The notes beneath the pieces were generated by a model. The model was not told the DNA's origin and did not search any database. It saw only the letters and a list, made by a program, of their open reading frames with translations. The translations under genes and the position numbers were made by a program. From Arthrobacter sp. MYb23 (GTDB lineage: Bacteria > Actinomycetota > Actinomycetes > Actinomycetales > Micrococcaceae), in NCBI RefSeq assembly GCF_002979775.1, contig NZ_PCPR01000005.1, positions 146,192 through 210,191 of the forward strand: a stretch of DNA of 64,000 nucleotides. Reading direction: 5' to 3'. Position 1 is the stretch's first letter; the number at the start of each line of letters is the position of its first letter. Of this stretch, positions 11,070-49,434 are shown piece after piece.

Positions 11070-11175
11070 GTCAGTGAGGGGCGACACGGCAGTGAAGGGA
11101 CTACAGCGCCCAGGCCGCGCGCCATGTTTGCGCGAACGAGCGCCGGATTGTGAAAAGAATCGATAATTGAAGACC

Positions 11176-11529: not shown

Positions 11530-11616
11530 GTACCGGGCGTTCCAAGGTGGGGCCGGGACAGGCCGACTATATTGGCCCTGTCAGCCCACCACCACCATTG
11601 AGGGAGCCTGCACACC

Positions 11617-16015: not shown

Positions 16016-16840
16016 TCAGCGCATCCGTACGCTCTCGCTGGGGCCGGCGTTGTAGCCGAGGTTTCGGGACACTGCCCTGGCCGTGGCCTGAACTGCAGGC
16101 GCCAAAACGTTGGGCGGCGTGGCGCCGTCGGGTACCACGATGGACAGCGCAGCCACCACCAAACCCTCGGCGCCAAAAATGGGTGACGCAACCGATACTG
16201 TGCGCGACGGTGCTGACCGCCGGATCATGGCCAGGCCCGTTCGCCGCACGTCGGACAAAGTGCGCCGCAATTGACCCTCCGGCAGGGACTCAACGCCCAC
16301 CTCGAGGTCAGGGGGTTGGTTGATGACTGATTCCTGGAATGCTGCTTCGGCCCCCGACAACAGGACCAGGCCCACCGCCGTCGACCTCAGCGGCGCACGT
16401 CCACCCACGCGATAGGCAACTTCGGTTGCTTCCTTGGAAGACAGCCGTTCGATCAGGACTGCTTCGTTCTTGTCGCGTACGGCCAGCAGTACGTGGTGGC
16501 GGGTCACTGCGAAGAGGTCCTCGAGGTAGGGCAGCGCGATTTCGCGGACGCCGTGACCTCGGGGCGACAATGATGCCACTTCCCACAAGCGGACGCCCAC
16601 CACGTAGCGGCCATCCTCCAGCCGTTCCAGGGCGCCCCACGCAACCAACCGCGCGATGAGGCGCAGGGCGGTGGGGGCTGGCATGTCAGCGAGTCGCGCC
16701 ATTTCGGATAACGTCAACGCCCGACGCCGGTCACTGAAGACGGCGAGCAGGCTCAAGGCGCGGTCAATGACGGGTTCGCCCTGTTTGGGCCGCTTACCGC
16801 GCTGCGCTTTTTCGGGTGGAGTTCCCACTTCGTTGGGCAA
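16016..16840 (-). CDS. IclR-family transcriptional regulator
   Basis: This 274-residue regulator has an N-terminal winged helix (IDRALSLLAVFSDRRRALTLSEMARLADMPAPTALRLIARLV) and a C-terminal effector domain of IclR type (VREIALPYLEDLF..TRHHVLLAVRD through RRTGLAMIRRSAPSRTVSVASPIFG). I prefer the TTG start at 16840, 9 nt after AAAGGA, over an ATG at 16894 with no ribosome site. With that start, the palindrome at 16889-16903 lies outside the coding region as an operator. It is divergent from the ABC importer genes, so it most likely senses an aromatic or other catabolite and controls the plus-strand catabolic genes and itself. Confidence 0.85.
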   Translation of the reverse strand: MPNEVGTPPEKAQRGKRPKQGEPVIDRALSLLAVFSDRRRALTLSEMARLADMPAPTALRLIARLVAWGALERLEDGRYVVGVRLWEVASLSPRGHGVREIALPYLEDLFAVTRHHVLLAVRDKNEAVLIERLSSKEATEVAYRVGGRAPLRSTAVGLVLLSGAEAAFQESVINQPPDLEVGVESLPEGQLRRTLSDVRRTGLAMIRRSAPSRTVSVASPIFGAEGLVVAALSIVVPDGATPPNVLAPAVQATARAVSRNLGYNAGPSESVRMR

Positions 16841-16888
16841 GAATCTGAATCCTTTCAACTCAAACCAGTGACCCCCACCACAATACTG

Positions 16889-16903
16889 TTTCAACCAATG
16901 AAA
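16889..16903. promoter_or_regulatory. Candidate IclR operator, site A
   Basis: TTTCAACCAATGAAA has inverted arms TTTCA/TGAAA and lies 49 nt upstream of the TTG start of the IclR gene, in the divergent region before the ABC importer. Similar sequences occur at 23738-23752 and 29813-29827. Confidence 0.45.
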
Positions 16904-17077
16904 TTCACGTGGGGCGACAGGCTGCCCGCCTACGACTCTTGAAGAAGCCGGTTACCGGAAGCCATCTGACGAGAGGGCGCCGACGGATCGGTCCGAACAG
17001 GTCACAGCCGACCATGTCCAGGCCGCCGGTCCAACATCTCGACTCACGATTCCATCACGAATGCGAAGGCGCAGCAC

Positions 17078-18634
17078 ATGAATCTCCTCACCTCACCTGC
17101 ACGTCGGAGCGCGGCCGTCCTGGCCGGGGCGCTCCTCTTGGGATCCCTGACAGCTTGTGGCGGAGGTACAGCAGCCACGTCCTCCGTGGACAAGAGCACG
17201 CTCACCATCGCCACCGACAGTGACAGCGCATCGTTCGGCTACGATCCGTTGCGGGTCTCGGACGCCCAGCGGCAGTTCTTCGAAGGCCTGTACGAAAACC
17301 TGATGACGCTTCAGCCTGACGGCAGCGTCGGTCCGGGCCTGGCCAAGGAATTCAGCTACAACGCGGACAACACAGTCCTCACCTTGACCCTCAAGGAAGG
17401 CGTGACGTTCACGGACGGCTCCACGCTGGATGCTGCGTTGGTCAAGGCCAACCTGGATCGACGCAGCGATACTGCCCTCAGCGCTTACTCCGCCATCGCC
17501 AAGGGCGGAGCGCAGGAGATTGCCGCTGTTGACGTGGTCAACCCCACGCAGGTGGCCATCACGTTCGCCAAGGCACAGCCGGGCTTCGAGAAGAACCTGA
17601 CCTCCACTTTGGGCATGATCGTGGGCAAGAACGCTGTCTCTGACACCGCGAGCCTGGCCACCATTCCGGATGGCTCCGGCCCCTACACCCTGGATAGCGC
17701 CACAACAGTCAAGGGCAACAAGTACGTGTTCACTAAGAACGAGAAGAACGCGGACGCGTCCAAGTACCCCTACAACAAGATCACTTTCAGCGTCATCATG
17801 GATCCCCAAGCCCGGGCGAATGCACTGGTGTCCGGCCAGGCGGACGTTGCCTCACTGACCTCGCCCACGGTGGACTTCGCAAAGTCCAAGGGCGTGGGCG
17901 TGTCCCAAATCGGCGGCACCGTCCAGACCATGATCTCCTTCGACAAGACCGGCAAGACATCGCCGGCCTTCGCCAGCGAGAAAGTCCGCCAGGCCTTCCA
18001 ATACGCCATCAACCGCAAGGCTCTGGTGGATGCCCTCCACAAGGGGGACATCCCAGCATGGAACGCACTGCCCAAGGACTCCGCAGGCTTTTCTGAAGAG
18101 CTGAACACCACCTACGCCTATGATCCGGCCAAGGCAAAGAGCCTCCTGGCCGAGGCTGGCTACGCCGATGGCTTCGACTTCCCTATCATCGCCGGACCCC
18201 AGACGCAGACGGATCTGCAGGCAGTTCAAAAGGACCTGGCCGCGGTGGGGATCACCATGAACGTTAAGCTCGCGGCTTCAACTGACGAAGCCTTCGCCGC
18301 GGTTGCCACCACCCCGCTGGGCTACGCCCCCTTGGGCTGGGACAACCCGGTGGGACTGATGTATGGCGCTATCCTCAGCGGCTTCACCAACGTCCAGAAG
18401 GCTACGGACGATCAGCTGAACGCAGCAACTGCCGAAGCGGCAGCAGCAAAAGATGACGCCGCGAAGAAGACGGCACTGACCAAGCTCAATACCCGCTTGG
18501 TGGAGTCCGGCTGGATGATCCCACTCTATGAGTCCCTCACCAACCAGGGCTACAACACCAAGAAGGTCCAGCAAGTGAAGTTCGCCGGAAGCAACGTCTA
18601 CCCGCTGCTCTCCTCCTACGCACCCACCAACTGA
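17078..18634 (+). CDS. ABC transporter substrate-binding lipoprotein (SBP family 5)
   Basis: This 518-residue lipoprotein has the signal peptide RRSAAVLAGALLLGSLTAC ending in a lipobox LTAC (Cys27), so it is anchored outside the membrane. The mature part is a family 5 solute-binding protein (DppA/OppA type): YDPLRVSDAQRQFFEGLYENLMTL and VRQAFQYAINRKALVDAL are typical. Such proteins bind oligopeptides, but many actinobacterial members bind oligosaccharides, glycosides or plant compounds. It is the first gene of an importer operon, divergent from the IclR regulator. A stem-loop after the stop could keep its mRNA more abundant than that of the permeases. Confidence 0.87.
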   Translation: MNLLTSPARRSAAVLAGALLLGSLTACGGGTAATSSVDKSTLTIATDSDSASFGYDPLRVSDAQRQFFEGLYENLMTLQPDGSVGPGLAKEFSYNADNTVLTLTLKEGVTFTDGSTLDAALVKANLDRRSDTALSAYSAIAKGGAQEIAAVDVVNPTQVAITFAKAQPGFEKNLTSTLGMIVGKNAVSDTASLATIPDGSGPYTLDSATTVKGNKYVFTKNEKNADASKYPYNKITFSVIMDPQARANALVSGQADVASLTSPTVDFAKSKGVGVSQIGGTVQTMISFDKTGKTSPAFASEKVRQAFQYAINRKALVDALHKGDIPAWNALPKDSAGFSEELNTTYAYDPAKAKSLLAEAGYADGFDFPIIAGPQTQTDLQAVQKDLAAVGITMNVKLAASTDEAFAAVATTPLGYAPLGWDNPVGLMYGAILSGFTNVQKATDDQLNAATAEAAAAKDDAAKKTALTKLNTRLVESGWMIPLYESLTNQGYNTKKVQQVKFAGSNVYPLLSSYAPTN

Positions 18635-18643
18635 TCCACAAAA

Positions 18644-18679
18644 GGCCGGGCGCCTGTTCCCAGGGACTGGCGTCCGGCC
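18644..18679 (+). promoter_or_regulatory. Intercistronic stem-loop after the binding-protein gene
   Basis: GGCCGGGCGCC (18644-18654) pairs with GGCGTCCGGCC (18669-18679), with one G-U wobble. It lies between the binding-protein stop and the ribosome site of the permease gene and lacks a T-run, so mRNA stabilisation or partial attenuation is likely. Confidence 0.55.
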
Positions 18680-18697
18680 CGAGCAATGGAGGTCACC

Positions 18698-19639
18698 ATG
18701 GCTATGTTCGTCACCAAGCGCCTGCTGATGGCGCTTGCCACCGTGTTGGTGGTGGCGGTGCTGGCGTTCCTGCTGGTCCACGCCATGCCTGGCAGCCCGG
18801 GCGCAGTATCACTCGGGGCAGGTGCTTCGCAGGACGCGATCGATCAATTGAACCAAACCCTTGGTTGGAATGATCCGTTGCTGGTCCAGTTCTTCCGTTG
18901 GCTGGGCGAGGCCGCGCAGGGCAATTTTGGCAACTCCCTCGTTGACGGACGATCCATCAGTTCTGACCTTGCCAACAGGCTTCCGGTCACGGCGTCCCTC
19001 GCCGCTGGCGCTACTGTTCTCAGCGCCCTCTTCGGCATCGTCCTCGGAGTCACCGCAGCTGTCCGGGGCGGTTTCCTGGATCAGCTGATCGGCGGGTTTG
19101 TTGGACTTCTGGTCGCCCTGCCCGCCTTCTGGATCGGCGTCATTTTCGTCTATCTCTTCGCCGTCCAGTCGACCGTTTTCCCGGCGACCGGCTACGTCCC
19201 GTTCGAAGTCTCCCCCCGGGATTGGGCGATGTCCCTCGCGTTGCCGGTCATTACCTTGGCCGTTGGTGGCGCAGCCTTTATAGCTCGGCAGACCAGGGCG
19301 TCGATGCTCGAGGCGTTGCAGCAGGAACACATCCGGACCCTTCGGGCAACGGCAACACCAACGTGGAAGATCCTTTACGTTCACGCCCTGCGCTATGCCA
19401 GCCTGCCGATCGTGGCTGGAATAGCGCTGCAGTTCATCGGCCTTTTCGGGGGCTCCGTCATTGCCGAGCAGCTGTTCGCCATGCCCGGCCTCGGCCAAGC
19501 CGTTCAGACCTCCGTCAGCACCCACGATGCCCCCGCCGTCCAGGGCGTGGTGGTCATCGCCACGGTTGTGGTGGTGGCCGTCAATCTGGTGCTTGAACTC
19601 GCCACCAAATTCCTTGATCCGAAGTTGCGTGCCTCATGA
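18698..19639 (+). CDS. ABC transporter permease (DppB/OppB type)
   Basis: This 313-residue membrane protein has six hydrophobic segments. The conserved N-terminal pattern MFVTKRLLMALATVLVVAVLAFLLVHAMPGSP and the EAA-like loop EHIRTLRATATPTWKILYVHALR mark the DppB class. I chose the ATG at 18698 because GGAGGT precedes it; an ATG at 18686 overlaps that ribosome site. The gene ends in an ATGA overlap with the next gene. It forms half of the translocation channel of the importer. Confidence 0.88.
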   Translation: MAMFVTKRLLMALATVLVVAVLAFLLVHAMPGSPGAVSLGAGASQDAIDQLNQTLGWNDPLLVQFFRWLGEAAQGNFGNSLVDGRSISSDLANRLPVTASLAAGATVLSALFGIVLGVTAAVRGGFLDQLIGGFVGLLVALPAFWIGVIFVYLFAVQSTVFPATGYVPFEVSPRDWAMSLALPVITLAVGGAAFIARQTRASMLEALQQEHIRTLRATATPTWKILYVHALRYASLPIVAGIALQFIGLFGGSVIAEQLFAMPGLGQAVQTSVSTHDAPAVQGVVVIATVVVVAVNLVLELATKFLDPKLRAS

Positions 19640-21687
19640 TTCCCACACTTCCAGCAACCACTCCGGCAATCCAGCGCAAGGCAGCACTCACAAAGCTCTC
19701 CAGACATCGTCTGCTCGCTTCCCCTGCCGGGCTTGCCGGTACGTTATGGCTGGCTGCGATGATCACTGCCTCGCTCACAGCGCCATGGTGGTTGCCTTTC
19801 CAGACCGAAGACCAGGATTTCACCGCGGTCTTGTCCGGCCCCACAGCAACGCATTGGTTGGGCACGGACGAACTGGGCCGCGACATCCTCAGCCGCATCT
19901 TCGCCTCAGCAGCCGAGACCCTGGGGACATCGTTCATCGCGGTGGTTGTCGGCGTCGGGCTTGGAACGCTGCTTGCGTTGGCTGCAGCCTCCAGTCAACG
20001 CGGCGAGGGTGTCATCAGCCGCGTCACCGAAGTCATGATGTCCCTGCCGGGAACGGTGATCATTCTGGCTGTCATCGGTGCCGTGGGAACCAACATCCCG
20101 CTGATCATGGCCATACTGGGCGTGTTGATTTCCGCTGGCATTTACCGGGTGATGCTCGGCCAGGCCAAGTCCTTGCAGAACCAACTGTATGTGGACGCTG
20201 CAAAGGTGGATGGCCTGGGTCCGCTGGCCATCAGTGCTCGTCACGTGCTGCCCGGACTGGCCACCACCATCGTGGTGCAGTCCGCGCTGATCTTCGCGGT
20301 GGGCCTGCTGATCCAGGCCGGCCTGGCCTTTATCGGCTTTGGCCCGCCCCTGCCGCAGCCCAGCTGGGGCGGCATGATCCAGAGCGCGTCACAGCACGTC
20401 TACGACGCACCTTGGCTCATGGTTCCCACGGGCGTGGTGCTTGCACTGACGGTTCTTTCCGCAAACGCGATCGGCAACGCGTTAGGTAAAGGTCCCAATG
20501 ACACGGCATCTCACCTTCCATCAGCAGCCATCCGTCGCAAGCGGGCAGGCCAGGCAGTTGCGGCTGCTGCAGCAGCGCCCGCCGTCGGGAATCCTCCGGC
20601 TGCCGGCAAGCTCAGCGTGCGCGGCCTCTCGGTAGGGGTCGACGGCGGCACTCCTCTGGTCACCGATGTCTCCTTCGACGTCGAACCCGGCATTGTCCTG
20701 GGGCTGGTTGGGGAGTCAGGCTGCGGTAAGACGATGACTGCTTTGTCACTCATGGGGCTTCTGCCGTCCGGCGTGGCGGTGACGGGTGGGCAGATCCTCT
20801 GGAACGGCAAGAACCTGGCCGCCGCCACGGATAAGGACATGGAAAGCATCCGTGGGCGCGATGTGGCCCTCATCTCGCAGGAGCCCATGAGGGCCCTGGA
20901 TCCGATGTTTACCGTGGGCTATCAGTTGACCTCCGCCATCCGCCGGCTACGCTCCATGGGCAAAGCCGCAGCCAGCGCCGAAGCCTTGAGCCTGCTGGAA
21001 AAGGTTGGCATTGTGGACGCCAAACGCATTCTGAAGACCTACCCGCACCAGATCTCCGGCGGTATGGCCCAGCGTGTGGCCATCGCATTGGCCCTGTCCG
21101 GGCGGCCGCGGCTACTGGTAGCAGATGAGCCCACCACCGCCCTCGACGTCACCGTCCAAGCCGAGATTCTCTCCTTGCTCCGGTCGCTGGTGAAGGACAC
21201 GGGCATGTCCGTGGTCATGGTGACCCACGACCTCGGCGTAGTTGCCGATATCTGCGACCAGGTAGCGGTGATGTACGCAGGCCAAGTAGTGGAGAACGGC
21301 GCCACAGCCAGCATCTTGGACGACCCGCGGCACCCCTACACGCTGGCCCTGCTCGCTGCGGATCCGCACGCCAACTCCGGTCACGATATGCCAGAGCGCC
21401 TGGCAACCATCAAGGGCCAGGTTCCGCAGCCGAAGGACTGGCCGGGCGGTTGCCGGTTCGCGGCACGTTGCCAGTTCGCCGGCTCAGCTTGCCTTGTACC
21501 GGTTCCCTTACTTCCCACGGGCACCGGCGTAGGCCTGGTGCGCTGCGTCAAGGCCGACGAACTGGCCACGGAGGGGCTCGCATGGGTGGCGACCGACGTT
21601 CCCAGTGACCTTTCGCCTGAACTCGGTGTTCCTGCCGAAGTTCCCGCCCGTCACCGGTTGGACATCATTGAAAAGGACATGGCATGA
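19636..21687 (+). CDS. Fused ABC permease (DppC type) and ATPase (DppD type)
   Basis: This is a single 683-residue chain. Residues 1-285 are a DppC-type permease with the [14 protein letters not shown] motif and the EAA loop [15 protein letters not shown] (185-199). Residues 290-325 are an Ala-rich linker. Residues 326-683 are an ABC ATPase with Walker A GESGCGKT (359-366), signature ISGGMAQR, Walker [14 protein letters not shown] and a C-terminal oligopeptide-ABC Cys motif ([14 protein letters not shown]). In most bacteria these are two proteins (DppC and DppD); the fusion fixes one permease to one ATPase. There is no frame break in the join, so the fusion is real in this sequence. Both gene junctions are ATGA overlaps. 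Confidence 0.9.
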
Positions 21688-22691
21688 GCATCGAAACCCC
21701 ACTGCGCAGCGAACAGGAAACCACAGTTCAGCGGAAGCCCATGTTGGAGGTGCAGGACCTCGTGGTCCGCTACGGCCACGGGCGGAAGACTGCCGCCGCG
21801 CCAGCTGCCGTGGACGGCGTCAGCTTCACCATTCAGTCCGGCGAAACCGTGGGGCTGGTAGGGGAGTCCGGCTCCGGCAAGTCGACCATAGGCAAGGCGA
21901 TCCTGGGCTTGCAGAAGATCTCCGGCGGCTCCGTGGGGTTCCAAGGCGAGGACATCACCCACACCACCTCCGGCAAGCGGCGCGCCATCGGCAGTGAGCT
22001 CCGGGCCGTCTTCCAAGATCCCAACTCGTCCCTGAATCCCCGCAAGACCATTGGCGCTTCCCTGGCCGAGCCGTTGCGGGTCCGCGGCATCTCCGCGGCA
22101 GCTGCCCGCACCAAGGCCGAAGACATGCTGGAACGTGTTGGCCTGCCACGGGAAGCCGTGGACCGGTATCCAAGCCAGTTCTCCGGCGGCCAGCGTCAAC
22201 GCATTTCCGTTGCCCGCGCATTGATCTGCGAGCCCAAGCTCGTGGTCTGCGACGAAGCAGTGAGTGCCTTGGACCTCTCCACACAGGCGCAAGTGCTGAA
22301 TCTCCTGGCTGACCTAAGGGACGAGCGCGGGCTGAGCTACCTGTTCATCGCCCATGACATCTCGGTGGTCCAGTTCCTGGCTCAGCGGGTAGTGGTGCTC
22401 TACCGGGGGCAGGTCATGGAATCAGGCCCCGCCGCCGCTGTGACAGAGAACCCGAAGCACCCTTTCACCCAGGCCTTGGTGGCGGCGTCTCCGGTTCCAC
22501 GGCCCGCGGAGCAGGCGGAGCGGCGGGCTGTCCGGGAAGCGCTCGGCGTTCGCACCGCCTCGGCCGTTGCGGCTGGACCGGGTGGCTGCCCGTTCCGTCA
22601 GCGCTGCCCCCTGGCCACCGAACTCTGCGCCACCGAACGACCGGCCCTACGGCGCATGGGTGAAGCGGATGTCGCCTGCCACCATGCCTGA
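21684..22691 (+). CDS. ABC transporter ATP-binding protein (DppF/OppF type)
   Basis: This 335-residue ATPase shows Walker A GESGSGKST, signature FSGGQRQRI, Walker B KLVVCDEAVSALD and an H-loop FIAHDISVV. The C-terminal oligopeptide-ABC extension has Cys residues (CPFRQRCPLATELC) that in several relatives bind an iron-sulfur cluster or metal. It starts in an ATGA overlap with the fused permease-ATPase gene and pairs with it to drive import. It completes a four-function importer encoded by four genes. Confidence 0.9.
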   Translation: MSIETPLRSEQETTVQRKPMLEVQDLVVRYGHGRKTAAAPAAVDGVSFTIQSGETVGLVGESGSGKSTIGKAILGLQKISGGSVGFQGEDITHTTSGKRRAIGSELRAVFQDPNSSLNPRKTIGASLAEPLRVRGISAAAARTKAEDMLERVGLPREAVDRYPSQFSGGQRQRISVARALICEPKLVVCDEAVSALDLSTQAQVLNLLADLRDERGLSYLFIAHDISVVQFLAQRVVVLYRGQVMESGPAAAVTENPKHPFTQALVAASPVPRPAEQAERRAVREALGVRTASAVAAGPGGCPFRQRCPLATELCATERPALRRMGEADVACHHA

Positions 22692-22744
22692 ACACATCCG
22701 TTGGCCTCTCAAACCAACATCCCCGAATCTTCCAGGAGGAACAC

Positions 22745-23704
22745 ATGACACTCGAAACCACCGAACACCGCGCGCCCACCCCGCCTCCGTTTCCCGCCTT
22801 CCATGCGCCAGGCCAGCCAGTGGAAGTGTCCGATGACTCGTTGGTCCACCGCGAGCTGAGCTATGCCATTGCTGTGGGCTTCCGACGTCTCTCCATGGAC
22901 ATCTGGCTTCCGCGCAAGGCAGCGGCCACGGCCGTACCCCTGGTGGTGTGGATCCATGGAGGCGCCTTCCAGCTGGGGGACCGAAGGGAACTGCCCCCAA
23001 CGTTCGCACCGGACTCGGTGTTCCGCCTTCTCAACCAAGCCGGCATTGCCTGCGCCACAGTGGACTACCGCCATTCTTTGGAGGCCCCCTTCCCGGCGCA
23101 GCTTCACGACATCAAGGCCGCAGTCCGCTACCTCCGCCACCACGCTGATGAACTGGGAATCGATCCGGACAGGATCGGAGCCTGGGGAGAGTCCGCCGGC
23201 GGGCATCTCGCTGCCTTGCTGGGCCTCACCGGTTCCCGCGAAGACCTGGAAGGTGGCCTTGGTGTTCAGGGACAAGCCAGCTCCGTGAGCGCGGTAGTGG
23301 ACTTCTACGGCGTGTCCTCACTGAACGATATGCCGCCGATGACGGCGGCCAACGACTTCATGGGCCCTGCACTCCTGGCCGCTGTGCCCGATGGCATGTC
23401 ACTTCATCCGGAGACCATGCTGGTGGGTGGTTCCACGGATCCCGTGGCCCTGGACGCGGCAAGCCCGCGCAGTTATGTCACGCCGGACGCCGCAACGTTC
23501 CTGTTGGTGCACGGAGATTCGGACGGTTTGGTGCCGCTGTGCCAGAGTGAAATCCTGGCCGGCCTGTTAAGCCAGGCGGGAGTCGAAAACGAGCTCATGG
23601 TCATCCCCGGCGCAGACCATTGCTTCTTCTTCGCTGTGGACCAGATTGACCGGATCCTGGACATGTCGGTTGAGTTCTTCCGGCGCGAATTCCGACTCCC
23701 ATGA
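22745..23704 (+). CDS. Alpha/beta hydrolase (HSL/BD-FAE-type esterase) 1
   Basis: This 319-residue protein starts at the ATG at 22745 behind AGGAGGA. The oxyanion motif HGGAF, nucleophile GESAGGH, acid region HGDSDGLVP and His in GADHCFFF place it in the hormone-sensitive-lipase/feruloyl-esterase-like class. No signal peptide is visible, so it acts in the cytoplasm. Its place directly after the importer suggests that it hydrolyses an ester in the imported or processed substrate. In a flavonoid pathway the logical substrate would be the depside released by quercetinase, or an acylated glycoside. That assignment is inference. Confidence 0.83.
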   Translation: MTLETTEHRAPTPPPFPAFHAPGQPVEVSDDSLVHRELSYAIAVGFRRLSMDIWLPRKAAATAVPLVVWIHGGAFQLGDRRELPPTFAPDSVFRLLNQAGIACATVDYRHSLEAPFPAQLHDIKAAVRYLRHHADELGIDPDRIGAWGESAGGHLAALLGLTGSREDLEGGLGVQGQASSVSAVVDFYGVSSLNDMPPMTAANDFMGPALLAAVPDGMSLHPETMLVGGSTDPVALDAASPRSYVTPDAATFLLVHGDSDGLVPLCQSEILAGLLSQAGVENELMVIPGADHCFFFAVDQIDRILDMSVEFFRREFRLP

Positions 23705-23737
23705 GTCCTCGCGCGGGCCTGGGAATCGCTGCGCCAG

Positions 23738-23752
23738 TTTCAATGATTGAAA
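23738..23752. promoter_or_regulatory. Candidate IclR operator, site B
   Basis: TTTCAATGATTGAAA is a perfect 7-1-7 palindrome in the 136-nt gap between the two hydrolase genes. It resembles sites A (16889-16903) and C (29813-29827). Confidence 0.55.
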
Positions 23753-23840
23753 TCGGCGGTTCAGCTGCGGGCGCAGAACCTACATTCTTGGATGAACAGG
23801 CCGGGACGTCATGATCCCGCCGAGGCAACAGAGGGAGTCA

Positions 23841-24704: not shown

Positions 24705-24795
24705 ATTTCCATCACCAACCGGCATCACCCCATGGGGTCTTGTTGCCATGCCCATCTACCAAATATCGCCTGCGGGCGAAGCTGAAAGGCCCACT

Positions 24796-27374: not shown

Positions 27375-28587
27375 CTACCTCTACGCGCCGGATCATCCGC
27401 GCGTAGCGAAACTCCGCGGCCTGGACGCACGCTCCTACGCGGAAGCCGCCAAGGACGATTCCTTCGCCGGGCCCATGATCGAAGGCTGGAAGAAGCTATA
27501 CCCCGAACCGTTCCTGGGCGTGACCAACGATGGTGTGGTGCGTGAAGGCTTGTTCCCGCTGACAGAAGCCCGTCCCGGCGAGGAGGCGCCGACGTCGGAC
27601 ATGGTGACCGCCGCGGACAAACTGCTTGCGTTGCTGAGCTCAACGCAGCGGGAGCTGTTGACCTACGCGGTGGACGCTCACGAATGGCGCAGCTGGGCCA
27701 ACCCGGAATTCATGCAGCATGACACCGGGTTGCGCCTGGACGAGCTCGACGTTGCGGTCAGGGACGCTGCCTTGGCCGTGGTCGAGGCCAGCCTCAGCGC
27801 GGAGGGATACGCCCTGGTCCGGAATCTCATGCGGATCAATGGGTTCCTTGGTGATCTGGTGGACCTGCCATTGCTCATGAACGAGTTCAGCTACAACTTT
27901 GCGCTCTTCGGAGCACCTTCCGGAACGGAACCATGGGGCTGGCAGCTGTTCGGCCACCACGTGGCACTTAACTGTTTGGTGATTGGTACCCGGTTGGTGA
28001 TCTCGCCGGTCTTTTTGGGTGCGGAACCGGACGTGATCGACGTCGGTCCTCATCAGGGCGTCAAGGTTTTCAAAGAGCGCATCCAGTGGGCCCGGGAACT
28101 GATGGAGGCCCTGCCGGAGGCGCTCCGTGACGAGGCGGTGATCTTCGAGCATATGCAGGACCCCTCCATGCCCGCAGGGCGGCTGCATGCAGGGGACGAA
28201 CGGCACCTCGCTGGGTGCTTCCAGGACAACAGGGTGATTCCCTATGAGGGCATCCCAGTCAGCTCCATGCCAGCCTCCGCGCTGGCTCTTTTAGAGAAGA
28301 TCATGGGGGATGCCCTTGCCTACCTGCCGGCCGGGCCACGGGCTGCCCGGATCCGTGAGATCCAAGAGCACTACGGGGAGACGTTCTTCTCGTGGATCGG
28401 TAGCTGGCAGGGCGGGGAAGCCTTCTACTTCCGCATCCAGAGCCCCGTGGTCATCCTTGAGCTTGATCACCACACGGGCGTCTTTCTCGATAACCAGCAC
28501 CCCGCGCCTTTCCACATGCACACCGTGGTGCGGACTCCCAACGGCAACGATTACGGGCGGGCGCTGGTCAACGAGTTCATCGGCTAA
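27352..28587 (+). CDS. DUF3500 protein
   Basis: This is a 411-residue cytoplasmic-looking protein with no signal peptide or membrane segment. The ATG at 27352 follows AAGGAG and lies inside the end of the hydroxylase gene. Conserved-looking parts are FLGVTNDGVVREGLFPL (about 45-60), WGWQLFGHHVALNCLVIGTRLVISPVFLGAEPD, a run with YFRIQSPVVILELDHHTG and a C-terminal HPAPFHMHTVVRTPNGNDYGRALVNEF. The HH and HxH clusters could bind a metal. The family has no assigned biochemical function that I know. Its tight coupling to a flavin hydroxylase and an FAH enzyme suggests a catalytic step in the same aromatic or polyphenol pathway. A strong terminator follows. Confidence 0.82.
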   Translation: MPTPSFRDYLYAPDHPRVAKLRGLDARSYAEAAKDDSFAGPMIEGWKKLYPEPFLGVTNDGVVREGLFPLTEARPGEEAPTSDMVTAADKLLALLSSTQRELLTYAVDAHEWRSWANPEFMQHDTGLRLDELDVAVRDAALAVVEASLSAEGYALVRNLMRINGFLGDLVDLPLLMNEFSYNFALFGAPSGTEPWGWQLFGHHVALNCLVIGTRLVISPVFLGAEPDVIDVGPHQGVKVFKERIQWARELMEALPEALRDEAVIFEHMQDPSMPAGRLHAGDERHLAGCFQDNRVIPYEGIPVSSMPASALALLEKIMGDALAYLPAGPRAARIREIQEHYGETFFSWIGSWQGGEAFYFRIQSPVVILELDHHTGVFLDNQHPAPFHMHTVVRTPNGNDYGRALVNEFIG

Positions 28588-28619
28588 GCAGTTCGGCGTG
28601 AATTTGCTGCTCGAAGAAC

Positions 28620-28660
28620 GCAGAAGGCCCGGATCCTTTCGAGGGATCCGGGCCTTCTGC
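28620..28660. terminator. Strong bidirectional terminator
   Basis: A 17-bp perfect stem (28620-28636 with 28644-28660) around a 7-nt loop, with a central GGATCC in each arm. It separates the convergent DUF3500 and quercetinase-like genes and closes both operons. Confidence 0.88.
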
Positions 28661-28668
28661 CGTCAGTA

Positions 28669-29736
28669 CTAGATATCCAGTGCAATTCGCCGCTGCGGGG
28701 GAGGACCAACCACTGTCAGGTCCATCTCGGCTTGGGCGCGGCCGAAACCTTCCATGTCCATGTACGGTTCGCCGCCCTCGGTGTAGATGTAGTCTTCCGT
28801 GGGCTTGTTGAAGTATTCGAAGAAGCCGTTGAAGACCGATGGCGTCAGGAAGCCCACCATCTGGGTGTTGTGCGCATCGAACGCGAAGGAATGGATGGTG
28901 CCGGCCGGAGCGTGGACAAAGTCGCCCTTGGTCAACAGCATTTCGCGGCCGTTGGCGTAGAGCCACATCCGGCCCTCCGTGCACAGGAAGTTCTCAGTGT
29001 GCTCGGAATGGAAGTGCAGCGGAATGTACGGCGACTTGGCGCCCTTGGTGTGCACCGCGAAGTAGTTATCACCGGTGTTCTGCGGACGCGAGAGGTAGGA
29101 GAACATGGTCTGGTAGCTGACCAACCGTTCTCCTTCGCCGGCACTGAGGAAGTACGGGGCCAACGACGCCGGGAGTCCTGCACTGTGCTGGAGGCCCGGT
29201 TGTACGCGTTCAATGTCAGGGAAAGTGAGGCCGAATTCGGCGCCCACCTCCGCCTGCTCCTGGAGGCTCGGTTTGTGGCCGGCGTGGGCGGGCGGAACGT
29301 GGGAATCCAAGGGTGTCCCAATGCGCTCGTAGTACGCCTCGGCCCCGCCCGGAGTCATCCAGTTGAGGAACCGCGTGTAGTGGCTGGCCATCCGGTAAGC
29401 GTGGGGTGTACCCGGGGGAATGACCACCGAATCCCCCGGGGTTAGGATGCGGCTTTCGCCGGGCAGCCAGACGTGGAGAATTCCGTCGAAGACGTACAGG
29501 GTTTTATGTTCGATCGCGTGGGTGACAAAGGGGGATTCAGCTCCCATGCCGCCTGAGACGTACGCGGCGCTGAAGATGCCGCCGGTGTCCGCTGCGCGGG
29601 CTATGAACGTGATCAACTGACCGTTGATCTCATACCTGGCTCCTTCACCGGAAGCCATGTAATAGGGGACCGCTTCGCCCGGGAGCGTGTTGGACAGGGG
29701 GAGTGCTTTGTTGATTTCCTCGACGCTGAGGGACAT
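28669..29736 (-). CDS. Bicupin dioxygenase, quercetin 2,3-dioxygenase-like
   Basis: This 355-residue protein has two cupin domains. Cupin 1 carries His73, His77 and His112 (THAIEH, PPGTPH). Cupin 2 has the full set His241-x-His243-x4-Glu248 (HFHSEHTE) and His282 in PAGTIH, after the pattern G-x5-HxH-x3,4-E-x6-G. Length and two-domain layout match bacterial quercetinases such as B. subtilis YxaG and Streptomyces QueD-like enzymes. These open the central ring of flavonols with O2, releasing CO and a depside (2-protocatechuoyl-phloroglucinol carboxylate from quercetin). The ATG follows GAAGGAAAGAAGGA. It is the last gene of the MFS-GH1-GH78 operon, which supports a flavonoid-glycoside substrate. 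Confidence 0.78.
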   Translation of the reverse strand: MSLSVEEINKALPLSNTLPGEAVPYYMASGEGARYEINGQLITFIARAADTGGIFSAAYVSGGMGAESPFVTHAIEHKTLYVFDGILHVWLPGESRILTPGDSVVIPPGTPHAYRMASHYTRFLNWMTPGGAEAYYERIGTPLDSHVPPAHAGHKPSLQEQAEVGAEFGLTFPDIERVQPGLQHSAGLPASLAPYFLSAGEGERLVSYQTMFSYLSRPQNTGDNYFAVHTKGAKSPYIPLHFHSEHTENFLCTEGRMWLYANGREMLLTKGDFVHAPAGTIHSFAFDAHNTQMVGFLTPSVFNGFFEYFNKPTEDYIYTEGGEPYMDMEGFGRAQAEMDLTVVGPPPQRRIALDI

Positions 29737-29812
29737 GTGTTCCTTCTTTCCTTCGTCGGACTGTGTGCCTGCTAGTAGCTTTGCTCATTGCGACCGCGGC
29801 GCAGAGCGGTGT

Positions 29813-29827
29813 TTTCAATCATTGGAA
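29813..29827. promoter_or_regulatory. Candidate IclR operator, site C
   Basis: TTTCAATCATTGGAA, near-palindromic and close to site B (TTTCAATGATTGAAA), lies 77-91 nt upstream of the quercetinase start. It also spans the last codons of the rhamnosidase gene, so it may be chance. Confidence 0.35.
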
Positions 29828-32098
29828 GGTGAGCTCAGCGGGGTGTCCGCTCCGGACATGCTGGCCCGGGCCCACAAGTTCCTCGTCCAGACCAGGAAGC
29901 CGCAGGACGGCTTCGCTGCCCTCCGGCACGGTGGCTGTGACTTCGAGGCGTCCGTCAACCAACTCCCACCGGACCGAAGCCTGTCCCAGTGGTGTTTCCA
30001 CGCTGGTCTCCGCCCACTCCAAGCCGCCGCCGGGCCTGGGAGCGATGAGGATGCGCCGGTATCCCGGTTCCAGTGGTGCGAGGCCGCCGATGGTCCTGTG
30101 CATCCAATCCACCACAGCACCCAGCGCATAGTGGTTGAAGCTGGTCATTTCGCCGGGGTTGATGGTGCCGTCGGGGAGCATTGAGTCCCAGCGCTCCCAG
30201 ATGGTGGTGGCGCCCATGGTCACCGAGTACAGCCATGAAGGGTTTTCGGTCTGGAGCAGCAGGCGGTACGCCTCATCGAGGTGGCCTGTGTCCGTCAGCG
30301 CATCGGTGACAAAGGGTGTTCCCGCAAAGCCGGTGGAGATCCGGAAGCCTGACTTTGCCACCAGTTCCGCCAGCCGTTCACCGGCAAAATCACGGTCAGC
30401 GTCGCCGAGGATTCCGAACACGATAGCCAGCGCATAGACGGTAGTGCAGTCGCTAAGGATGACCCCGTCCGATACGTAGTGCTCCGTGAATGAGGTTCGG
30501 AGCGCACCTGCCATCTCGCCAAACTCGGCGGCGGCGGCATCATCGCCCAGGACGGCTGCTGCGGAAGCCACCAATGATGCGGTCCGGAAGGCGCACAAGG
30601 TAGCCACCACGTGTTTGTCGGCCTTGGCAGCCCAGGGCTGGTCCGGGGCGGCGTCGGGATCAAGCCAGTCACCAAACTGGAAGCCGGTGTCCCACAAACC
30701 GTTGGGGGAGAGCTTGCTCCGAAGCCGCCGGGCGTGCCCGGTCATGGAGTCGAATTGTTCCTCCAGCACACGCTTGTCCCCGTATGCAGTCCAGAGGGCC
30801 CACGGAACCCATACAGCGGCATCGCTCCACACCGCTGCTGTATCCGGGGCACCGAACTCGGCGGGCTGCTCGATGTACTTCAGGACGTTGGGGACCACGA
30901 AGGGCACCAAATCGTTGTCATGCTTTTGCTCCAGCGCCAGGTCCCGCAGCCAATCCCTCAGAAAGTCGCGGCTGTCGAACAAGAACGCCGCACTGGGTGC
31001 AAAGGCCGAAAGATCACCAGTCCAGCCCAGGCGTTCGTCGCGTTGAGGGCAGTCGGTGGGCACGTCCACAAAGTTGCCCCTCATGCCCCAGACGGCATTC
31101 TGGTGAAGGCGGTTGAGCAGCGGATCGGAGGAAGCGAAGTGACCGATCCGCTTCATGTCAGAGCTGATAACGACGGCGGTCAGGCCGCCCTGGTCCCGGA
31201 GCGCGTTGATACCGCCGGGCCATCCTTCAACTTCGGCGTAGCGGAAACCATGAAAGGTCAGGGTCGGCTCAAAGACGTCTTCTCCGCCTGACAACGTGAA
31301 GCGGTCCGTCGCTTCCGCCGAACGCAGCGGCCGGGTGCCCAGTTCATTCTCTTCCAGCACCTCCGCGTGGCGGATCGTCACCACATCACCTGGAGCGCCG
31401 GTCACCGATGCTTGGACCCAACCCACCAGGTTCTGGCCAAAGTCAACCAAGACCTTCCCCGCCGGCGACGTCCACACCTTCACCGGCCGCAGCTCCATTT
31501 GGCGGCGTACCGGAGGGCCGATGTAGGGCTCAAGGCGGCTGAGGTCATCGTCGAGCGTGTGCACAGCGGACCACGCACCCGAGGTGAATCCGGGTGCCAG
31601 CCACGCGTCGTCGGAACGCCGGGCGTCAATGGACTGGCCATCGTAGAGGTCATTGGCAGTGGTGGCCGACGGCCCGGCGGTCCATGAGTCATCAGTGCCG
31701 ATGATTTGCTGGTGGCCGTCGGAAAAGAGGACGCGGAGCTCCGCGAACGCGCCGAGTTCCTGACCGTAGTACTTGGACCCGCCGGACCACGCCAGCCGCC
31801 CCCGGTACCAGCCGTTTCCCAGCGCCAGCCCAATGACCGTCGTCGTGCCGACCATATCGGTGACGTCGAGTTCGCTGTACCTGACGCGCCACTCAAAGCT
31901 CGACCAGCCGGGCGTCAGGAGGTCCTCGGAAGCACGTTGGCCGTTGACCCATGCCTCCACCACTCCGAGTGCGGAGAGGAACAAAGTGGCGGACTCAACA
32001 TCGCCGTGGCCTTCATCAAGAATGAACTCGCCACGGATCAGCGGTGCTCCGTCGAACTCTTTGTCCGGGGCGATCATGCGGGCATGCCAGGTAGTCAT
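29819..32098 (-). CDS. Alpha-L-rhamnosidase, GH78
   Basis: This 759-residue protein follows GH78 order: an N-terminal beta-sandwich with SALGVVEAWVNGQ and LTPGWSSFEWRVRY, then LALGNGWYRGRLAW, a concanavalin-like domain (VLVDFGQNLVGWVQ), the (alpha/alpha)6 catalytic barrel with VDVPTDCPQRDERLGWTGD (residues 344-362, including the catalytic-region Asp/Glu cluster), and a C-terminal beta domain. It is shorter than many GH78 enzymes because the most N-terminal accessory domain is missing. No signal peptide is present, so terminal rhamnose is removed inside the cell. With the adjoining GH1 enzyme it can strip a rhamnosyl-glucose unit such as rutinose from a flavonol. Confidence 0.87.
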   Translation of the reverse strand: MTTWHARMIAPDKEFDGAPLIRGEFILDEGHGDVESATLFLSALGVVEAWVNGQRASEDLLTPGWSSFEWRVRYSELDVTDMVGTTTVIGLALGNGWYRGRLAWSGGSKYYGQELGAFAELRVLFSDGHQQIIGTDDSWTAGPSATTANDLYDGQSIDARRSDDAWLAPGFTSGAWSAVHTLDDDLSRLEPYIGPPVRRQMELRPVKVWTSPAGKVLVDFGQNLVGWVQASVTGAPGDVVTIRHAEVLEENELGTRPLRSAEATDRFTLSGGEDVFEPTLTFHGFRYAEVEGWPGGINALRDQGGLTAVVISSDMKRIGHFASSDPLLNRLHQNAVWGMRGNFVDVPTDCPQRDERLGWTGDLSAFAPSAAFLFDSRDFLRDWLRDLALEQKHDNDLVPFVVPNVLKYIEQPAEFGAPDTAAVWSDAAVWVPWALWTAYGDKRVLEEQFDSMTGHARRLRSKLSPNGLWDTGFQFGDWLDPDAAPDQPWAAKADKHVVATLCAFRTASLVASAAAVLGDDAAAAEFGEMAGALRTSFTEHYVSDGVILSDCTTVYALAIVFGILGDADRDFAGERLAELVAKSGFRISTGFAGTPFVTDALTDTGHLDEAYRLLLQTENPSWLYSVTMGATTIWERWDSMLPDGTINPGEMTSFNHYALGAVVDWMHRTIGGLAPLEPGYRRILIAPRPGGGLEWAETSVETPLGQASVRWELVDGRLEVTATVPEGSEAVLRLPGLDEELVGPGQHVRSGHPAELTFQ

Positions 32099-32125
32099 CA
32101 GGTGGTCTCCAGTTTTAGGGTGTGG

Positions 32126-32167
32126 GCGGGCGAACTCAGGCGGGCGAACTCAGGCGGGCGCTGCTAG
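32126..32167. repeat. 14-bp tandem repeat, two exact units plus a decayed third
   Basis: GCGGGCGAACTCAG occurs at 32126-32139 and 32140-32153, followed by GCGGGCGCTGCTAG (32154-32167) with 10 of 14 bases kept. It lies between the GH78 start and the GH1 stop; the third unit holds the GH1 stop codon. Confidence 0.75.
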
Positions 32168-33453
32168 GCGGGCTGGTTGACGAGGGCAGCGGATTCGGTG
32201 ACCTCAAGCGATGCACCGTTGTTCTGCGCTACTCCACCCAGCCAAGAGGCGCTGGGCTTGGGCGTTCGCTCCTGCGTGGTGCGGTCCACTGCGATCAGGC
32301 CGAACTTGGGGACGTATCCAAAGATCCATTCGAAGTTATCGAACGCTGTCCAGGCGATGTAGCCCCGAACATCGATGCCGTCAGCCAAGCAAGACGCGAC
32401 GCCGGAAACTGCTGTCCGAAGATAGTCCAGGCGCTGGGTGTCGTCCTCGGTTGCCAGGCCGTTCTCGGTGACGATGACCGGGATCTGTGCAACCCGCGCA
32501 GCCTCGCGGATGGTCGCTTCCAGGCCCTCAGGGTAGATCTCCTCACCCATCTGATTGGTGGGGACGCCGTCCTCGGCGTGGACAAGGCCATCGGCTCCAA
32601 ACACAGTGCGGCCGTAGGTCTGGATACCCACAAAGTCGTCTCCGCGGGAAGCTTCCAGGAAGCGCTCGTTAACTTCGCGGCGGATACGCTCTGCGTTGAC
32701 TTCCCCTCCGGCTGCGGCATGAATGTCCGTGTTGGCCAAGGTCCAGCCCACCATGAGTTCGGGGTAGCGGGCCTTGATGGCATCGCGCCCGGCACGGTGC
32801 GCTGCGAGCTTCACATCGAAGCCTGCCGTGGAGACGGTGAATTGGAACGGGGCCACCCTTGCTGCGTCAATGTTGAGCCGTTCTGCGGCGGCCGCCCAGA
32901 TCGGTACCTGGCCGCGGCTCTCGGCAGGACCGCCACCGATGCCGATCTCCTTCAGCAGCCACGGGAGGTTCGGTTCATTGAGCGTGCAGGCAACGCCGAT
33001 CAGCTCGCCGAGGTGCTCGGTAACACGCTCGCAATAGCGTGCGAAGCGTTCCGGGGTGGCCGGGTCTTCCCAGCCGCCGGCGGCGAGCAGCCACAGGGGC
33101 GAGGTGAAGTGATGGAACGTGACCACCGGCGTCAATCCGTGCTCGTGGCAGGCCTCCAGGACGCGGCGGTAGTGGTTCAGGGCCGCCGTCGAGAACTGCC
33201 CTTCCTCGGGTTCGATGCGTGCCCATTCCAGGGAGAAACGGTAGGTGGTGAATCCCAGGCTCGCGATGAGTGCCACATCCTCGCGGTACCGGTGGTAATG
33301 GTCGATCGCGTCGCCGGAAGGCTCAGCGAAGATGGTGCCGGGCAATTGCTCCAGGAACCACGTGTCGCTGTTGACGTTGTTCCCTTCCACCTGGTGGGCT
33401 GCGGTGGCTACTCCCCAGAGGAAGCCATCAGGGAAGGACTGGGAGGTGGTCAT
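32164..33453 (-). CDS. Beta-glucosidase, GH1
   Basis: This 429-residue TIM-barrel glycosidase starts FPDGFLWGVATAAHQVEG, the GH1 N-terminal signature. The acid/base Glu160 lies in TLNEPN and the nucleophile Glu330 in VTENG. The C-terminal region DNFEWIFGYVPKFGLIAVD is intact. It should hydrolyse beta-glucosides in the cytoplasm, since no signal peptide is present. The ATG at 33453 follows AAAGGA. Placed between the transporter and the rhamnosidase, it fits removal of the inner glucose of a rhamnoglucoside after the rhamnosidase. Confidence 0.9.
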   Translation of the reverse strand: MTTSQSFPDGFLWGVATAAHQVEGNNVNSDTWFLEQLPGTIFAEPSGDAIDHYHRYREDVALIASLGFTTYRFSLEWARIEPEEGQFSTAALNHYRRVLEACHEHGLTPVVTFHHFTSPLWLLAAGGWEDPATPERFARYCERVTEHLGELIGVACTLNEPNLPWLLKEIGIGGGPAESRGQVPIWAAAAERLNIDAARVAPFQFTVSTAGFDVKLAAHRAGRDAIKARYPELMVGWTLANTDIHAAAGGEVNAERIRREVNERFLEASRGDDFVGIQTYGRTVFGADGLVHAEDGVPTNQMGEEIYPEGLEATIREAARVAQIPVIVTENGLATEDDTQRLDYLRTAVSGVASCLADGIDVRGYIAWTAFDNFEWIFGYVPKFGLIAVDRTTQERTPKPSASWLGGVAQNNGASLEVTESAALVNQPA

Positions 33454-33516
33454 GTAAGTTCCTTTACGAGTCTGTGAATCGGTTGGTCTGTGAGGCAGTG
33501 GAGAGGCAGCCCGCTT

Positions 33517-34863
33517 CTAGCGGACACCCTTGATGAACGTGACGGTGATGCTGCCCATGGCGCACAGCGCGGCGGCCGCGAACCAGAGGAAGCCGTAGTT
33601 GTGGCCGCTGCCGATAGCGAGGATCGCCGGGGCAGCGGCGGGGACGATGATGTTGGGGATGCTCAGTGCGAGGCTGAAAACTGCCATGTCCTTGCCGGTG
33701 TCCCGGGCGTCGGGGAGGACAGCGGCGCAAAGGGCCAGATCGACGGTGAGGTACATGGCCTGACCCATGGCGAAGATGATCCAGGCCACCACGAACTGCT
33801 CGAAGGACGTTGCCGTGGCGCCGATGACCAGGGCGGTGGCCATGAGGAGCGCCGCGCCAATCACAAACGGCTTGCGCCGACCCATCTTGTCGGAGAGCCA
33901 CCCTGATGCGGTAAAGAACAGGATGCTGACGGGGGCGGAAATCAAGGTGAGCAGGCCGGCGCTCTTCCCGGCTTCGGCGATCGGCATGCCGAGCCCGTCC
34001 ATCAGGAAGAAGATGAAGTAGGCAAAGAGCGCCGTCATCGCAATGCCTGCCAGGAATCGTGAAACCCAGGCCCAGGCGAAGTTGGGGTGCTTGCGCGGAT
34101 CAACGAGGAAAGACTTGGCCAAACCCTTGAGATCAAGCGGCGGCAGCTCGGCACGTGTCTTCGCAGGATCCTTGTAGAGGACCAACAGCGGAATGCTGCA
34201 GACGAGAGCCAGCAAAACGGGAACGCACATCATGAGCAGCGGCGCGTCCACCAGCCAAGCGGCAAGGTAGGATCCCGCGGACATTGCCAGCGCACCGGCC
34301 ATGCCCATGGCGCCCATGACGCGGGCGCGCTTGTTGTCCGGAAGGGCCTCGATGGGAATGACTGCGTAGGCGTTGAACGCTGCCTGTGCCGACACCAGGG
34401 CAACGACGTAGGCCGCGACAATGACCGGCGTCGACGGCACGGTACCTATGACGGCTGCGGCAAGCAGCGCCGGGACCAGTCCGCCAATGATCCATGGACG
34501 ACGACGGCCGAACCGGCCCGCTGTGCGGTCGGACAGCGCGCCGGTGAGCGGGATCGTGACCAGCAGGAGAAGCGAGCTGATGGAAACGGCCATGCCGTAG
34601 CTCGTCTCTTTGCTTGCCGGATCAACTGCGGCAAGGCGCAGCGAGAGTGCTGTGCCCAAAGTCAGGCTCATGATGTACATGCCCAACGCGGCGATGAGGA
34701 CCAACGCCATGGTCCTTTTGATGGACACCGGCTGCTTCGGCACAGTGCCCGACGGCGATGCGGCGGCTTTTGTGGCGACTGTTGCGCCAAGTTCAGCACG
34801 CCCGGCAGGTCCCGTGACCTGGGACGGGGCTGTTTCCATGAATTGCGATGTGGGGTCACCCAT
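33517..34863 (-). CDS. MFS / GPH-type sugar or glycoside transporter
   Basis: This 448-residue membrane protein has 12 predicted helices. The loop between helices 2 and 3 reads GALSDRTAGRFGRRRPWI, the typical (G/S)xxSDRTxxxxGRRRP motif shared by MFS and GPH disaccharide carriers. A long polar N-terminus precedes the first helix. I chose the ATG at 34863 because AAAGGAGG stands 7 nt upstream; an earlier in-frame start at 34890 has none. It should bring the intact glycoside into the cell, because both glycosidases lack signal peptides. It heads the operon and is divergent from the TetR regulator. Confidence 0.85.
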   Translation of the reverse strand: MGDPTSQFMETAPSQVTGPAGRAELGATVATKAAASPSGTVPKQPVSIKRTMALVLIAALGMYIMSLTLGTALSLRLAAVDPASKETSYGMAVSISSLLLLVTIPLTGALSDRTAGRFGRRRPWIIGGLVPALLAAAVIGTVPSTPVIVAAYVVALVSAQAAFNAYAVIPIEALPDNKRARVMGAMGMAGALAMSAGSYLAAWLVDAPLLMMCVPVLLALVCSIPLLVLYKDPAKTRAELPPLDLKGLAKSFLVDPRKHPNFAWAWVSRFLAGIAMTALFAYFIFFLMDGLGMPIAEAGKSAGLLTLISAPVSILFFTASGWLSDKMGRRKPFVIGAALLMATALVIGATATSFEQFVVAWIIFAMGQAMYLTVDLALCAAVLPDARDTGKDMAVFSLALSIPNIIVPAAAPAILAIGSGHNYGFLWFAAAALCAMGSITVTFIKGVR

Positions 34864-34964
34864 GAGAATCCTCCTTTGGACCAGAGCCACCGTTGGCTCT
34901 TTGTGACCGGTGATGCGGGCCGTTGAGGGACCGGCCCGTGATGTCTTCCAGCAACGTTAACTAA

Positions 34965-35021
34965 ACTTTGACCACATTGGAATATTTTCGACAAGATTTC
35001 TTTACCAAAGTGGAAAAGAAA
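34965..35021. promoter_or_regulatory. Divergent promoter/operator region for the MFS operon and TetR gene
   Basis: This is an AT-rich stretch in otherwise GC-rich DNA. It contains TTTCTTT (34997-35003) facing AAAGAAA (35015-35021), and ACTTTG (34965-34970) facing CAAAGT (35006-35011). It probably holds both promoters and the TetR binding site. Confidence 0.5.
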
Positions 35022-35052
35022 CTTGATAGCCTCGTTCAGAGGAGGTCTATCC

Positions 35053-35664
35053 ATGGATCAGGAAACCCGCACCCCGGGCCGCACGGGGAAGCGCGCCCCC
35101 TACGCGAACGGTGCAAAGAAGCGCGCTGAATTGGTGGAAGCAGCCTTCCAGGTGTTCGCCGAAAAGGGATATCTGGGCTTGTCCATCCGCCAGATCGCTG
35201 AAGCTGTTGGCACCAGCCACACTGCCCTTCTCCACCACTTCGGAAGCAAGGAAGCACTACTGGAGGCCGTGCTGGTCCTCCGCGAAGAACGCGAAGGACC
35301 CTGGCGCAAGGAGCTCATCAGCGAGCAGGGGCTCCTTGAAACGGTGCCGGCAGTCATGAGGCACAACGCCGGGATCCGCGGAGTGATCCACCTCGACGCA
35401 ACACTGCGGGCTGAAGCCATCAGCCCAGACCATCCGGCCCACCACTTCCTCCTCCGGCGCAATCAGGACTTTGTGGATTCAGTCCAATCCGAACTCGAAC
35501 GCGAACTCGCCGCCGGACGCCTCAGGGAGGGTTTTACGCCGTCGATTCTGGCGCGGCAAATCACAGCCCTCGTTGACGGGATCCAGTTGAGCTGGCTCTA
35601 CGACGAGTCGGTGGACATGGCCGAACATCTCCAAGGGTTCATGGACCTGATCAGAAAGCACTGA
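35053..35664 (+). CDS. TetR-family regulator
   Basis: This 203-residue regulator has an N-terminal helix-turn-helix (ELVEAAFQVFAEKGYLGLSIRQIAEAVGTSHTALLHHFGSKEALLEAVL), exactly the TetR pattern. The rest is an all-helical ligand domain. The ATG at 35053 is preceded by AGGAGG; the frame could begin at 35023, but that lies upstream of the ribosome site. It is divergent from the MFS-GH1-GH78-quercetinase operon and almost certainly represses it until a sugar or flavonoid ligand binds. Confidence 0.88.
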   Translation: MDQETRTPGRTGKRAPYANGAKKRAELVEAAFQVFAEKGYLGLSIRQIAEAVGTSHTALLHHFGSKEALLEAVLVLREEREGPWRKELISEQGLLETVPAVMRHNAGIRGVIHLDATLRAEAISPDHPAHHFLLRRNQDFVDSVQSELERELAAGRLREGFTPSILARQITALVDGIQLSWLYDESVDMAEHLQGFMDLIRKH

Positions 35665-49431: not shown

Positions 49432-49434
49432 GTT

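Follow-up and report, generated by a model that had tools for sequence, protein, structure and literature searches.

The window analysed here, a 64-kb stretch of the 5.19-Mb genome of the soil bacterium Arthrobacter sp. MYb23 (G000 in the sets below), contains at positions 16016 to 35664, on contig 45, an island of two convergent operons that is predicted to serve the breakdown of plant flavonol glycosides. An open reading frame check and a Pfam scan found all 15 genes open at the places listed in Table 1, in agreement with an earlier note made from the sequence alone, which had described the two operons, their gene families and the divergent regulators. Hereby, the plus-strand operon encodes, in this order, a family 5 solute-binding protein, a permease, a fused permease-ATPase and an ATPase of an ATP-binding cassette (ABC) importer, two BD-FAE type esterases, a member of the FAH family, a class A flavin hydroxylase and a DUF3500 protein. 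The minus-strand operon encodes a transporter of the major facilitator superfamily (MFS), glycoside hydrolases of families 1 and 78 (GH1, GH78) and a two-domain cupin protein (bicupin). IclR and TetR genes form the outer ends of the island, each divergent from its operon. The two esterases had previously been called HSL-type, but their best Pfam fit is BD-FAE. The start positions of the FAH gene (about 24796, set by eye) and of the DUF3500 gene (27352, as in P0002) are in neither case the first possible ones. Between the operon halves lies a perfect 17-bp inverted repeat with arms at 28620-28636 and 28644-28660, which had been read as a terminator; this function is unproven, because a terminator scan between the halves recognised no stem with a T run. 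A further inverted repeat of 11 nt (91% complementary) is located at 34997-35021, just upstream of the TetR gene. Against the PcaR/PcaU/PobR subfamily model the IclR protein scores 99.5 bits, which is under the cut-off of 284.75.

Table 1. Features of the island, in positions of the 64-kb window
Feature	Position	Strand	Evidence and remarks
IclR-family regulator	16016..16894	-	Pfam IclR_C/HTH_IclR; start codon provisional; divergent from importer operon
Family 5 solute-binding protein, Opp-type ABC importer	17078..18634	+	Pfam SBP_bac_5, E 7e-58
ABC permease	18686..19639	+	Pfam BPD_transp_1
Fused ABC permease and ATPase, 683 aa	19636..21687	+	One frame: BPD_transp_1 107-283, ABC_tran 343-501
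ABC ATPase, oligo_HPY tail	21684..22691	+	Pfam
BD-FAE type esterase 1	22745..23704	+	Pfam BD-FAE, E 2e-53; GESAG serine motif in translation
BD-FAE type esterase 2, candidate depside esterase	23811..24704	+	Pfam BD-FAE, E 8e-54; conserved beside FAH
FAH-family hydrolase, 285 aa from likely start	24796..25653	+	Pfam FAA_hydrolase, E 4e-65
Class A flavin hydroxylase, PRK06126 subfamily	25653..27374	+	FAD_binding_3; NF004780, 631 bits, cut-off 445
DUF3500 protein, 411 aa, proposed ring-opening enzyme	27352..28587	+	PF12006, E 1.8e-101
Perfect 17-bp inverted repeat, 7-nt loop, between convergent halves	28620..28660	.	Repeat search
Bicupin, quercetin 2,3(2,4)-dioxygenase-like, C-terminal metal site only	28669..29736	-	Pfam, YxaG match, ligand alignment
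GH78 alpha-L-rhamnosidase	29819..32098	-	PF17389, E 1e-112; solved alpha-L-rhamnosidase 6gsz, E 1e-187
GH1 beta-glucosidase-like protein	32164..33453	-	PF00232, E 3e-71; NEP and TENG motifs in translation
MFS transporter	33517..34890	-	MFS_1
TetR regulator	35023..35664	+	TetR_N; divergent from MFS-GH1-GH78-bicupin operon

With two cupin domains and full-length homology to characterised quercetinases, the bicupin qualifies as a quercetinase candidate. Its residues 15-319 match YxaG of B. subtilis with an E-value of 3.5e-65, and in structure and sequence comparisons it is closest to three different quercetinases. The metal site, described before as an intact HxH-x4-E-H site, is so only in the C-terminal domain, where the H-x-H-x4-E ... 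H set is complete in 66 of 66 aligned sequences (the window protein and 65 of 120 listed homologues). The N-terminal site is complete in none of the 66, and in the window protein V71 and K78 occupy the positions of H62 and E69 of YxaG. Whereas YxaG possesses four ligands in both domains, the window bicupin retains the C-terminal set only and is therefore a variant rather than a YxaG-type enzyme with respect to the metal site. The single copper site of Aspergillus quercetin 2,3-dioxygenase sits in the N-terminal domain. Compared to that enzyme (1juh, 1gqg; 15-16% identity), the bicupin would thus carry its single metal site in the opposite domain.

We compared the window genes with 45 loci from named genomes, of which the 43 that hold at least 30% of the bicupin were counted (L074 and L075 fall below this limit). 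The broken or partial copy L072 and the loci L047 and L060, which are cut by contig ends, were kept with their unseen genes counted as misses; L073 and L074 come from the same genome, as separate contigs, and through the overlap of L001-L030 with L031-L075 some genomes are represented twice in the 73-row locus set. DUF3500 and the hydroxylase are each found at 39 of the 43 loci, an FAH orthologue at 38 and an orthologue of esterase 2 (at least 55% identical) at 37. DUF3500 is missing at L047 (contig end), at L072 (broken copy) and at L068 and L069 from the distant genera Haloechinothrix and Nocardiopsis, where an esterase gene overlaps the bicupin start and a GH78 gene lies nearby. In a genus sample of 101 genomes, 32 contain the bicupin (two as fragments only) and 35 contain DUF3500, i.e. 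all 32 bicupin genomes versus 3 of the 69 others (Fisher 3e-23, uncorrected for relatedness); both genes are fragmented in G011. Among 396 genomes of a phylum sample the bicupin occurs in 2 (E 1e-50) and DUF3500 in 26, including both bicupin genomes. The co-occurrence of the island genes exceeds chance. Judged by gene content, the conserved unit is made up of bicupin, esterase, hydroxylase, FAH and DUF3500, and the glycosidase modules are exchangeable. Some relatives (L032, L033, L073 and others) show a third esterase (Abhydrolase_3) between the two esterases, which the window and L067 lack; at L067, positions 11144-13926, genes resembling CoA-transferase family III and carboxyltransferase stand between bicupin and DUF3500.

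All four Bac_rhamnosid domains of the GH78 protein exceed the Pfam cut-off, and it has the motifs DERLGWTGD and WERWDS, which presumably carry the catalytic acids, in common with 6gsz and 3w5m. The GH1 domain likewise passes its Pfam cut-off; since its score against the TIGR03356 equivalog (264 bits) is below the cut-off of 478.5, no glucosidase specificity was given. Inspection of the translations by eye, without a predictor, revealed no signal peptide at either N-terminus, and sugar removal is therefore likely to be cytoplasmic. The presence of a rhamnosidase and a beta-glucosidase adjoining a quercetinase points to a flavonol rhamnoglucoside. Across the genus sample, where GH78 matches were listed down to about E 1e-29, strong GH78 matches (E below 1e-60) occur in 31 of 32 bicupin genomes versus 17 of 69 others (Fisher 1e-12). 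For 16 of the 32 genomes the distance from such a match to the bicupin is within 10 kb and for 27 within 50 kb, with about 0.4 and 1.8, respectively, expected by chance; of the remaining five, G011 lacks a strong GH78 altogether and the other four lack one on the contig that carries the bicupin. In a tree of 32 GH78 domains (2 of 34 matches were too short) the bicupin-linked ones are spread over three or more clades with full support, to none of which Nocardiopsis belongs, and a GH3 gene is present at L046, L061 and L069, where no GH1 was seen (for L046 and L069 by membership in the family of L061). The window genome has six PF17389 matches in all; two further strong GH78 matches are located about 9 kb apart on its contig 10, at 57705-67889.

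The earlier note had proposed the use of a rutin-like glycoside and had named conservation of the neighbouring enzymes without the glycosidases as grounds for refutation. This is in part what we found, because an island-type MFS-GH1-GH78 operon, as well as the TetR gene, is present at only 4 of 43 relative loci and 20 show no GH78 in the available flank; these counts weigh against the proposal, as the sugar operon is not part of the conserved unit. In its favor, the genes for bicupin, esterase, hydroxylase and FAH recur as a group, some GH78 (at least 30% identical) stands at 23 of the 43 loci, and GH78 genes cluster near the bicupin in the genus sample. Thus, as far as the compared sequences tell, the window MFS-GH1-GH78 operon is local, yet the sugar-trimming function recurs beside the bicupin. 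A comparable set is found on a conjugative IncFIB plasmid of Klebsiella variicola KV1 from banana, which unites a carboxylesterase, GH1, quercetinase, alpha-L-rhamnosidase and MFS; the latter four are 28-38% identical to their window counterparts. In contrast to the TetR and IclR genes of the window, the plasmid island has an AraC regulator, and the 19 kb read contain no match to DUF3500, hydroxylase or FAH. Its order (L146, 4718-15494) is carboxylesterase, hypothetical protein, GH1, quercetinase, AraC, alpha-L-rhamnosidase and MFS, and insertion sequence (IS) transposase genes flank it on both sides, possibly marking a mobile rutin-like island in Enterobacteriaceae. On a plasmid of Alloyangia pacifica (L150, 6992-12521) a cupin, two alpha/beta hydrolases, GntR, FAH and a glutathione S-transferase stand in a row, with no DUF3500 annotated in this stretch, perhaps as another flavonol-type aglycone cluster.

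The DUF3500 protein, to which the earlier note had assigned no role, probably is the key to the second aromatic ring. It covers positions 2-297 of the 297 in PF12006, its predicted structure reaches a mean confidence (pLDDT) of 87.5, and its closest named relatives are from Paenarthrobacter/Arthrobacter. The family is large in bacteria, with 4778 proteins at E <=0.001 among 7998 scored candidates. Using a purpose-built profile we defined close-type DUF3500 proteins by a score of at least 450 bits. At seven loci of this type without adjoining bicupin, FAH lies within about 5 kb in all seven (two weak matches, 112 and 115 bits), and the hydroxylase profile matches in five (two weakly, 104 and 97 bits), with a FAD_binding_3 gene at one further locus; lower-scoring DUF3500 loci have FAH in only 2 of 19 cases. 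By these profile matches, the hydroxylase-DUF3500-FAH trio extends beyond bicupin islands. Beside the bicupin of G040 the hydroxylase is lost, as is most of DUF3500, and FAH is shortened; a second trio (51-64% identical) is located about 20 kb off, together with GH1, IclR and binding-protein/permease genes. A pathway study in A. nidulans reportedly describes a cluster of a monooxygenase, an FAH-like gene, DUF3500 and a short protein, with 2,4,6-trihydroxybenzoate among the substrates. The linkage of a monooxygenase and an FAH-like gene to DUF3500, a feature reported for that pathway, is seen here by Pfam and locus comparison. According to a passage of a review (PMC12388069), a DUF3500 protein of A. 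nidulans is proposed to open 1,2,3,5-tetrahydroxybenzene; AN10530 of this central pathway and the island are thus alike in having DUF3500 as proposed ring-opener. By analogy, the trio may match a ring-opening route that has to date been described in fungi, with the difference that the island is bacterial and joined to a quercetinase. The part of a further source concerned with Herbaspirillum fde and Variovorax ifc (PMC11069340) likewise places a flavin hydroxylase within a flavonoid catabolic cluster; there, however, the A-ring is hydroxylated and cleaved, whereas the window island would open the central ring first. The Pfam scan detected no FdeC-type extradiol dioxygenase among the 15 island proteins, FdeC not having been used as a query. 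In Rhodococcus qingshengii RL1, an excerpt of PMC8416521 lists a hydroxylase, MFS, helix-turn-helix, DUF3500 and FCD close together (D6M20_RS19290-RS19320), resembling the order hydroxylase-MFS-DUF3500-FCD at L124.

Taken together, we regard it as somewhat probable that the island is a complete route for flavonol rhamnoglucosides (rutin-like), including the phloroglucinol half via 1,2,3,5-tetrahydroxybenzene. The MFS or the ABC importer would take up the glycoside, and inside the cell GH78 would take off rhamnose and GH1 glucose. Opening of quercetin at its central ring, with loss of CO, would fall to the bicupin, as judged from its family, its predicted fold and the one metal site that is intact. 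Ester cleavage of the depside product of quercetinases yields protocatechuate and 2,4,6-trihydroxybenzoate, a step for which a BD-FAE esterase is the candidate. Protocatechuate would be drained by the one pcaGH-like intradiol pair elsewhere in the genome, which also holds one weak intradiol-family match. Following the fungal analogy, the class A hydroxylase would convert 2,4,6-trihydroxybenzoate or phloroglucinol to tetrahydroxybenzene, DUF3500 would open this ring and FAH would hydrolyse the ring-opening product.

Several other explanations have to be weighed against this route. The bicupin might be a cupin dioxygenase for another phenolic compound, for which the loss of the N-terminal metal site in its whole clade could speak, but the nearness of fold and sequence to three different quercetinases and the invariant C-terminal site render this improbable. 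The island might also join two independent neighbours with no common substrate, i.e. an operon trimming rhamnoglucosides of any plant glycoside and one for a flavonol or phenol. Separate regulators, the convergent arrangement, the rarity of the island-type sugar operon and five other GH78 matches in the genome are compatible with such a division; given that the bicupin lies directly behind the glycosidases on the same strand, that other GH78 clades and GH3 are linked to it in other genomes and that the Klebsiella plasmid unites the same set, we consider it to have little probability.

For the second ring, DUF3500 could instead be dehydratase- or tautomerase-like and act after an unlinked ring cleavage, with the trio handling phloroglucinol by other chemistry. 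Indeed, the GHH, E-x-D and H-x-H residues are shared with the fold relative 9x86, titled dehydratase ApmL; however, H374 of the invariant set is absent from 9x86. The DUF3500 alignment covers 69 of the 240 proteins listed. The ring opening proposed for the fungal DUF3500 also argues against a dehydratase, as does the lack of any LigB dioxygenase in a genome search that covered the LigB and intradiol families (and not VOC extradiol enzymes and others), with the intradiol matches named above as its only yield. We therefore regard this explanation as unlikely, although a serious contender. That FAH acts on released L-rhamnose, as a 2,4-diketo-3-deoxy-L-rhamnonate hydrolase, is suggested by its best NCBIfam match, NF053535 (161 bits versus a cut-off of 500), and by the structure match to 8gsr (E 1e-40), which ranks second behind 8sky, named as FAH family only. 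Yet FAH accompanies DUF3500 at all seven close-type loci outside the island (two of them weak matches), one of which is in G007, a genome without GH78 among the matches listed, and within the island no further gene for rhamnonate use was noticed, a search of the genome for such genes not having been made; this role of FAH is quite improbable. Of the readings compared, that of a flavonol-rhamnoglucoside route has the best support.

Elsewhere in the window, the 712-aa product of a plus-strand gene at 38486-40624 contains two stretches of FecCD permease and is probably a fused importer of the siderophore type. On the minus strand, 45782-53275 holds VWA_CoxE, DUF5682, AAA_5, DUF5691 and a 432-aa gene without Pfam match, resembling a MoxR/VWA-type operon. 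At 53439-61607 of the same strand (Pfam scan excluding 57618-59471), genes for DUF3100, an M20 peptidase, an aldehyde dehydrogenase and a protein resembling phenol hydroxylase may form a second catabolic operon, for aromatic compounds or amides.

To our knowledge, no bacterial enzymes have been named that process the phloroglucinol half of flavonols once a quercetinase has acted. Among the matches listed in a literature search of titles and abstract starts, with few subscription journals, there were neither such named enzymes nor a report of such a bacterial cluster. A section of a 2026 database paper (PMC13094099) states that the tetrahydroxybenzene pathway "currently seems restricted to fungi". 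The parts of the island are of known families, and we class the whole as a cluster for flavonoid catabolism that combines a quercetinase of one metal site with a ring-opening module of fungal type and supplies candidate genes for every step of phloroglucinol-half breakdown. Only tentatively, as a possibility somewhat short of an even chance, do we propose that bacteria own this 'fungal-only' pathway, with DUF3500 as a new kind of aromatic ring-opener that stands together with a quercetinase of one metal site and with exchangeable rhamnosidase/glucosidase modules in a 20-kb island leading a flavonol rhamnoglucoside from import to open-chain acids. If true, this would carry the tetrahydroxybenzene pathway from fungi into bacteria and give a function to the large bacterial DUF3500 family. 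For its host, the island would likely allow the uptake of rutin-like plant compounds and the breakdown of both their sugars and their aromatic core.

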